DNA of 59,038 nucleotides from Candidatus Atopostipes pullistercoris (GTDB lineage Bacteria; Bacillota; Bacilli; Lactobacillales; Carnobacteriaceae_A). The DNA lies in the NCBI GenBank assembly GCA_019116785.1, contig DXAZ01000037.1, positions 1 through 59,038 on the forward strand. Direction: 5' to 3'. Below the pieces are notes generated by a model. That model worked only from the letters and a program-made list of their open reading frames with translations, did no database searches and was not told the DNA's origin. The first letter of the stretch is position 1, and each line of letters opens with the position of its first letter. Shown here piece after piece: positions 22,159 to 23,155 of this stretch. The translations under genes were made by a program, and so were the position numbers.

Positions 22159-22698
22159 ATGAAAAACAAACCAAAAGAAGGAGACATTATAACACTAAAA
22201 AGTTATAAACATGATGGAAGCTTACATCGCACATGGCGTGACACTATGGTATTAAAAACAACGGAAAAAGCGTTAATCGGTTGTAATGACCATACCCTAG
22301 TAATAGAATCAGATGGAAGACGATGGCGAACGCGTGAACCAGCTCTTGTTTATTTTCACGAAGAATACTGGTTTAACATTGTCACCATGATTCGTCAAAA
22401 AGGAATTTCTTATTATTGTAATTTAGCTTCTCCTTTTTTAATTGATGAAGAAGGCGCAAAATATATTGATTATGATTTAGATGTTAAAATATTCCCAGAT
22501 GGAGAAAAACGTCTGCTTGATGTCGATGAATATGAAGTCCATGGGAAAAAATATAACTATCCAAATGAAATAGACCCTATTTTAAATGAACATGTGAAAA
22601 TATTAGTGAGCTGGATAAGAAATGAAAGAGGACCATTTTCAAAAGAATATGTTGATTTATGGTTCAATCGATACAAACAACTAACAGGTAAAAAATAA
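22159..22698 (+). CDS. DUF402 nucleoside tri-/diphosphate phosphatase
   Basis: 179 aa protein of the DUF402/FomD-like family. The Gram-positive members (S. aureus Sa1684, Ntdp) hydrolyse nucleoside di- and triphosphates. Matching features are [24 protein letters not shown] at the start (two short blocks), then [24 protein letters not shown] and the metal-binding-type segment [14 protein letters not shown]. The binding site is weak (TGAGAG nine or more bases before ATG) and lies in a direct repeat next to a hairpin. It is a single gene with its own promoter and terminator. Cellular substrate not visible. Confidence 0.9.
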
Positions 22699-22699
22699 A

Positions 22700-22737
22700 A
22701 AAAGCGATGTAGAGAAATCTACACCGCTTTTTTTTAG
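22700..22737. terminator. Terminator after the DUF402 gene
   Basis: AAAAAAGCG-TGTAGA pairs with TCTACA-CGCTTTTTT across a GAAA loop with one mismatch. A and T runs make it work in both directions. It lies just beyond the 3' end of the minus-strand small RNA. Confidence 0.9.
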
Positions 22738-22743
22738 GAAAAC

Positions 22744-22867
22744 AAAAAAACGTATCGCTTCGGTGTAATCACGGCAAAACGATACGTTAGTTAAGCCATT
22801 GAGTAACACCGTTTTATGTCAGCACATATCAGCTTACTGACATAAAAGGGTGGGTCAAAAGGCTTAT
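22744..22867 (-). ncRNA. Candidate small regulatory RNA, about 124 nt, family not recognised
   Basis: Seen on the minus strand: a promoter (22875-22902) fires into a compact structured segment. Closing stem P1 pairs TAAGCC (22866-22861) with GGCTTA (22797-22792). Inside it hairpin P2 has 11 perfect pairs (TTTTATGTCAG with CTGACATAAAA, 22847-22837 and 22822-22812) and a 14-nt loop. Between P1 and P2 is an unpaired GACCCACCC. A 9-bp hairpin AACGTATCG/CGATACGTT (22788-22749) followed by seven T ends it. No ORF with a binding site lies within. C-rich unpaired stretches in Firmicutes small RNAs often pair with ribosome binding sites, so a trans-acting role is my inference. I could not match it to 6S, SRP or a known riboswitch. 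Confidence 0.7.
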
Positions 22868-22874
22868 AAAAAGT

Positions 22875-22902
22875 ATTATAACATAGGTGATTATTAATGC
22901 AA
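22875..22902 (-). promoter_or_regulatory. Promoter of the candidate small RNA
   Basis: Minus strand TTGCAT (22902-22897), 16-base spacer ending TATGT, perfect TATAAT (22880-22875). This gives a start at about 22867, exactly where stem P1 begins. Confidence 0.75.
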
Positions 22903-22915
22903 ATAAGAAATTTAC

Positions 22916-23155
22916 TTAATAGTAGTACTTGCTTTCATCATTACTCATATTTTTTTCCATTGCTTCCTCAAATTTTAATAAACCTTCTTGAGTCTTTAAA
23001 ATGGACTTTTGCGTTAAGTCATTTAATCTGTATGCAAGGTCTTTTTTAGTATCAGTTCCCTTTTGTGGAGCTAAAAAGAATGCACCAGCTGCTCCTGCAA
23101 TTGTTCCTACGATAAGTCCTAAACTCATTAAATTTCTCGTTTTATTTTTACTCAC
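22916..23155 (-). CDS. YtxH domain-containing protein
   Basis: 79 aa small membrane protein. One glycine-rich helix GLIVGTIAGAAGAFFLAPQKG matches the YtxH signature (G-xxx-G pattern ending in APxxG). A charged, helical cytoplasmic tail follows, with tyrosines at the C-terminus. Members are general-stress associated in Bacillus; molecular function is unknown. GTG 23155 is the start because GGAGGG lies five bases upstream; the frame upstream of it contains no binding site. It is divergent from the exporter-like gene and is followed by the small RNA promoter 14 bases past its stop. Confidence 0.8.
   Translation of the reverse strand: MSKNKTRNLMSLGLIVGTIAGAAGAFFLAPQKGTDTKKDLAYRLNDLTQKSILKTQEGLLKFEEAMEKNMSNDESKYYY

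Follow-up and report, generated by a model that had tools for sequence, protein, structure and literature searches.

A probable stand-alone member of the RF01065 RNA family in Candidatus Atopostipes pullistercoris

The window analyzed here, the whole stretch of 59,038 nt from Candidatus Atopostipes pullistercoris, carries a small RNA gene of about 124 nt on the minus strand at 22744..22867. On the covariance-model matches, it is the Atopostipes member of a known family, RF01065 ("23S-methyl"): a real RNA gene, and not a new one. With a probability of about 0.72, we propose that this member would be a stand-alone small RNA transcribed from its own promoter, a structured RNA with a regulatory role in trans.

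When the whole window was scanned with Rfam, 22853..22744 of the minus strand was assigned to RF01065 at 51.8 bits (gathering cut-off 50), the sole match above any cut-off in the window. The sister species A. suicloacalis scores just under that cut-off, at 49.4 bits. Since the Rfam score was marginal, an independent covariance model (R1) was built from 21 aligned relatives and the structure seen in their individual folds, with the window's genus excluded. R1 matches the window over all 129 of its positions (22868..22744) at 86.3 bits (E ~6e-19), which removes the doubt left by the marginal Rfam score. The same model gives 81.9 bits in A. suicloacalis and 91.1 bits for a full-length copy in a genome labelled E. 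faecalis, and it finds a single copy in the window's genome. Both the fold and the covariation show the RF01065 layout of a long hairpin with a terminator hairpin 3' of it, and Atopostipes, in the Carnobacteriaceae, falls within the Lactobacillales where the family occurs. An adjacent rRNA or tRNA methyltransferase gene (rlmA, trmL), which the family name suggests and which we treated as context and not as part of the RNA model, is not present at the window. The preliminary description had called the gene unannotated and had itself named a significant match to a known family as grounds for giving up its claim; the RF01065 match is of that kind, and the gene can no longer be called unannotated. 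Nor did the kinship that it raised with RsaE/RoxS, 6S, or csRNA hold, as the Rfam scan has no match to these near a cut-off. RsaE/RoxS (RF01820) reaches 19.3 bits against a cut-off of 79, at another place in the window, and no 6S match was found in the window.

The gene sits between two convergent protein genes, one for a DUF402 protein on the plus strand (ending at 22698) and one for a YtxH-like protein on the minus strand (stop at 22916), and an ORF check found no notable coding frame over the RNA segment. The promoter (22875..22902, minus strand) consists of a -35 TTGCAT (22902..22897), a 16-nt spacer, and a TG-extended -10 TATAAT (22880..22875); direct reading of the window places the TG one base 5' of the -10 box, and a scan also recovered the promoter in a 17-nt register. 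Its conservation was assessed from 106 distinct sequences upstream of relatives' copies, in each of which the best promoter-like site within 130 bases was taken. That site lies 4-10 bases 5' of the closing stem in 98 of the 106 regions, with about seven expected at random, although many of the 98 come from close relatives and so are not 98 independent events (Enterococcaceae, Carnobacteriaceae, and others are included). The -10 box is preceded by TG in 97 of these 98. The coordinates, promoter, convergent flanks, and lack of an explanatory coding frame are therefore as first described. A long A/T-flanked hairpin (22697-22734) that could terminate transcription on both strands also separates the DUF402 gene from the terminator of the RNA, placing two terminators back to back. 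A trpB-motif match (36.6 bits against a cut-off of 59), which spans two terminators, was taken as chance.

The predicted fold is far from what chance would give. The MFE of the RNA is -49.5 kcal/mol, compared to -20.9 (sd 3.1) in shuffled sequences, and a z of -9.1 with 0/200 shuffles reaching the native value excludes a fold by chance. The first hairpin is closed by P1, in which UAAGCC (22861..22866, minus strand) pairs with GGCUUA (22797..22792) in the MFE structure and in the alignment. P1 is paired in 24-26 of 26 aligned sequences and includes a C-G/U-A change. P2 is formed by CACC (22852..22849) and GGUG (22807..22810), found in the MFE structure, the pairing probabilities, and the alignment; its C-G in the window replaces the U-G or U-A of relatives. 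P3 (22812..22847) pairs 22847..22836 with 22823..22812 around an apical loop, includes the 11-bp arms UUUUAUGUCAG/CUGACAUAAAA evident both by direct reading and in the MFE structure, and differs from relatives by two compensatory double changes (U-A to A-U and A-U to G-C).

The terminator hairpin with its T run occupies 22744..22788. A stem of 9 bp had been described, with seven T after it; the hairpin and the seven T are there, and the stem is longer, with 14 pairs (22788..22775 with 22762..22749) and three more (22772..22770 with 22765..22763) on either side of a conserved 2-nt bulge (22774-22773). All 17 pairs form in 26/26 sequences, with six changed on both sides. The tip with the bulge (GCNGUG...CACCGA) is the most constant part of the RNA over the order, and a genome search found no further copy of it elsewhere in the genome.

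Twenty-seven sequences folded one by one have a broadly common layout, and 26 were aligned for covariation. On this alignment 97.5% of cells pair, and both partners have changed in 11 pairs, compared to 4.0 in shuffles, none of which (0/500) reach 11; sliding the partner by 1-3 columns lowers pairing to 40-47%. MAFFT placed the two Atopostipes rows off by one column in P1, and one gap was moved for the pair-by-pair reading; the covariation counts use the uncorrected alignment. The closing stem, the 11-bp hairpin, and the covariation of the stems expected in the preliminary description are thus borne out. Together with the promoter kept in relatives, the covarying stems support an independently transcribed, non-coding structured RNA, as judged from comparative sequence data.

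The preliminary description further proposed that an exposed C-rich segment, GACCCACCC (22848..22856), expected to be constant in relatives, could pair through CCCACCC with ribosome binding sites, making this a trans-acting C-rich small RNA. The letters are present in the window, and A. suicloacalis carries GACCCAUCC. However, the CACC in the segment is the 5' arm of P2 and is locked with GGUG: each of its bases has a predicted probability of 0.00-0.02 of being unpaired, free bases of the segment are predicted only at CC (22854-22853) and at the last C (22848), and any 6-mer of GACCCACCC is unpaired with a probability of 3e-6 to 4e-5. These probabilities are thermodynamic predictions for naked RNA, and helicase action or a target might nonetheless expose the arm. 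Nor is the segment C-rich or constant in other relatives, where GACCCACCC aligns with the GUUCAUUGG arm and UUCAU/GUGAA stand at the columns of CACC/GGUG. The sequence has changed while the pairing is kept, which argues for a structural role. On the predicted pairing, the C-rich segment is one side of a helix and not a seed; pairing probabilities and covariation led us to reject a C-rich seed, and the reading built on it is highly improbable.

The gene context separates the window from most of the family. In most of 170 tabulated loci (some genomes enter twice, via two collections) rlmA, assigned by a Pfam match to the RlmA zinc ribbon, precedes the RNA and trmL, queG, or ddl follows it, with all of these genes in the RNA's orientation. 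The order in the window is YtxH > RNA < DUF402, whereas in relatives it is mostly RlmA > RNA > TrmL/QueG/Ddl. In the window, ytxH and an exporter gene separate the RNA from queG and trmL, both of which point away from it, trmL at a distance of about 2.9 kb. Protein and family searches found no rlmA in the window's genome or in that of A. suicloacalis (99% complete), which keeps the RNA. In A. suicloacalis a gene other than ytxH precedes the RNA, and the contig ends there; the truncated ORF at this contig end (L002 1800-2045) matches AID/APOBEC-like deaminase families weakly, at scores below the cut-off. No rlmA was detected in at least eight genomes that carry the RNA (e.g., G004, G008, G010, G031, G071, and G085), and in G044, a genome of streptococcal type, over half a megabase of one contig separates rlmA from the RNA.

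The family's name and its "Cis-reg" type in Rfam apparently derive from neighbors of the rlmA/trmL type. A cis-regulatory leader, controlling rlmA or trmL by attenuation or as a 3' element, would suit the majority of tabulated loci, where the RNA is co-directional with its neighbors, follows rlmA, precedes trmL, queG, or ddl, and ends in a terminator. At the window it has little probability: the downstream DUF402 gene is convergent, trmL and queG run in the opposite direction, rlmA is absent, and the RNA still has its promoter, fold, and terminator. The distant rlmA of G044 and the genomes in which rlmA was not detected argue against it as well. Because promoter and fold persist despite the absence of rlmA and with no trmL or queG downstream, the window RNA looks, on sequence grounds, like a stand-alone RNA and not the cis-element of the Rfam label.

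Alternatively, the element might serve chiefly as the 3' UTR and terminator of ytxH, with a small RNA perhaps processed from the ytxH mRNA. The end of ytxH, which is on the RNA's own strand, lies about 50 bases 5' of the RNA, and no terminator stands between them, so the ytxH mRNA should end at the RNA's terminator. We consider this origin unlikely, given the conserved promoter between ytxH and the RNA and the different upstream genes in the sister species and other relatives.

If the window RNA is indeed a stand-alone small RNA, a sigma-A-type promoter would start transcription at about 22867, and P1, P2, and P3 would make up a single long hairpin with interruptions, its closing pairs at the very 5' end of the transcript, with a second hairpin 3' of it ending transcription. 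We infer that the RNA most likely acts in trans, because a stand-alone RNA was kept without its usual neighbors. Its contact with a partner, an mRNA or protein, would be made by the P3 apical loop, the bulged tip of the terminator, or both. The P3 loops of relatives contain CCAUCAGA or CCUGUU, sequences with the potential to pair with a start codon or ribosome binding site. The loop sequence CCAUCAGA, constant in relatives, is absent in Atopostipes, and for this reason the partner of the Atopostipes RNA may have been lost or changed. A search of 16 relatives' genomes for the loop complement TTCTGATGGGT found no start site common to different genera among the matches examined, and those outside the RNA gene fell almost all within coding frames. 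We dropped the idea that the loop mimics the RlmA substrate in 23S rRNA (UGUU occurs in some loops), since Carnobacteriaceae loops lack UGUU and Atopostipes lacks rlmA.

A possible rearrangement was also seen. In several lineages the P2 3' arm is also complementary, in differing letters, to the linker 5' of the terminator, giving a possible swap helix of 7-10 bp (GUUAGUGAA/UUCACUAAC, GUUGAUG/CAUCAAC, GUGAAUGA/UCAUUCAC). Copies with this helix include L021-L025, L030, L036, L039, L166, L183, and L189; the window keeps only 4 bp of it (GUUA/UAAC). Helices with a sequence's own linker score 6.10, compared to 5.45 (sd 0.17; 0/200) when linkers are dealt among sequences in a shuffle that ignores relatedness. 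The swap helix has a probability near zero in thermodynamic ensembles, and we treat it as a lead, no more. A broader proposal would be that the cis-regulatory label is wrong for the whole family, and that this widespread RNA has its own transcription, acts in trans, and switches between two states, with the P2 3' arm swapping to the linker and freeing the 5' arm for a target; this is speculative and rather doubtful.

RF01065 was found in 194/295 Lactobacillales genomes and 48/74 genera, usually as one copy. The RNA is thus present in about two thirds of the sampled genomes of the order, enterococci included. The enterococcal copies sRNA_111 (E. faecalis) and sRNA_106 (E. faecium) have been detected and validated by Northern blot (PMC7724050). 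No function for the RNA is reported in the literature searched, and the main text of the enterococcal Grad-seq paper does not mention it. Several variants were recorded. One genome (G035) has, besides a normal copy, a shortened match of 46.4 bits directly after a tRNA-like sequence (L064 1501-1578), and two matches each also occur in G069, G097, G255, and G274. In Trichococcus copies (L074, L081, L090, L156) the first hairpin is quite different, whereas the terminator hairpin is retained, as is a TTGACA/TATAAT-like promoter. A Trichococcus-like copy is found in a record titled Sedimentibacter sp. SX930 (L091), which is likely contaminated or mislabelled, as Sedimentibacter is outside the Lactobacillales. 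In a genome labelled E. faecalis, a PreQ1 riboswitch match (39.5 bits, cut-off 39) lies about 5.5 kb from the RNA (L128 596-641).

Taken alone, the window RNA is an unremarkable further copy of an RNA already in the catalogue; its value is as evidence about the RF01065 family. Atopostipes lost or left the usual neighbors and kept the RNA with its promoter and fold, a small natural experiment. This retention makes an independent small RNA the better hypothesis for RF01065.

Among known systems, RoxS/RsaE and other C-rich small RNAs of Firmicutes have only a short C-rich stretch in common with the window RNA, which has no family match to them and holds that stretch in a helix, not free. With RF01065 it shares the two-hairpin layout with a bulged terminator at the end, a score above the cut-off, and a full-length match to the relatives' model. 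It differs from the family in its P3 loop, its gene context, and the absence of rlmA, and the Rfam model does not cover its closing stem P1 or its promoter. Enterococcal copies among the tabulated loci have a CCUGUU-type loop and the rlmA-trmL context, and the window has neither. It nonetheless belongs to one family with sRNA_111 and sRNA_106, the members that have been detected experimentally as small RNAs (PMC7724050).
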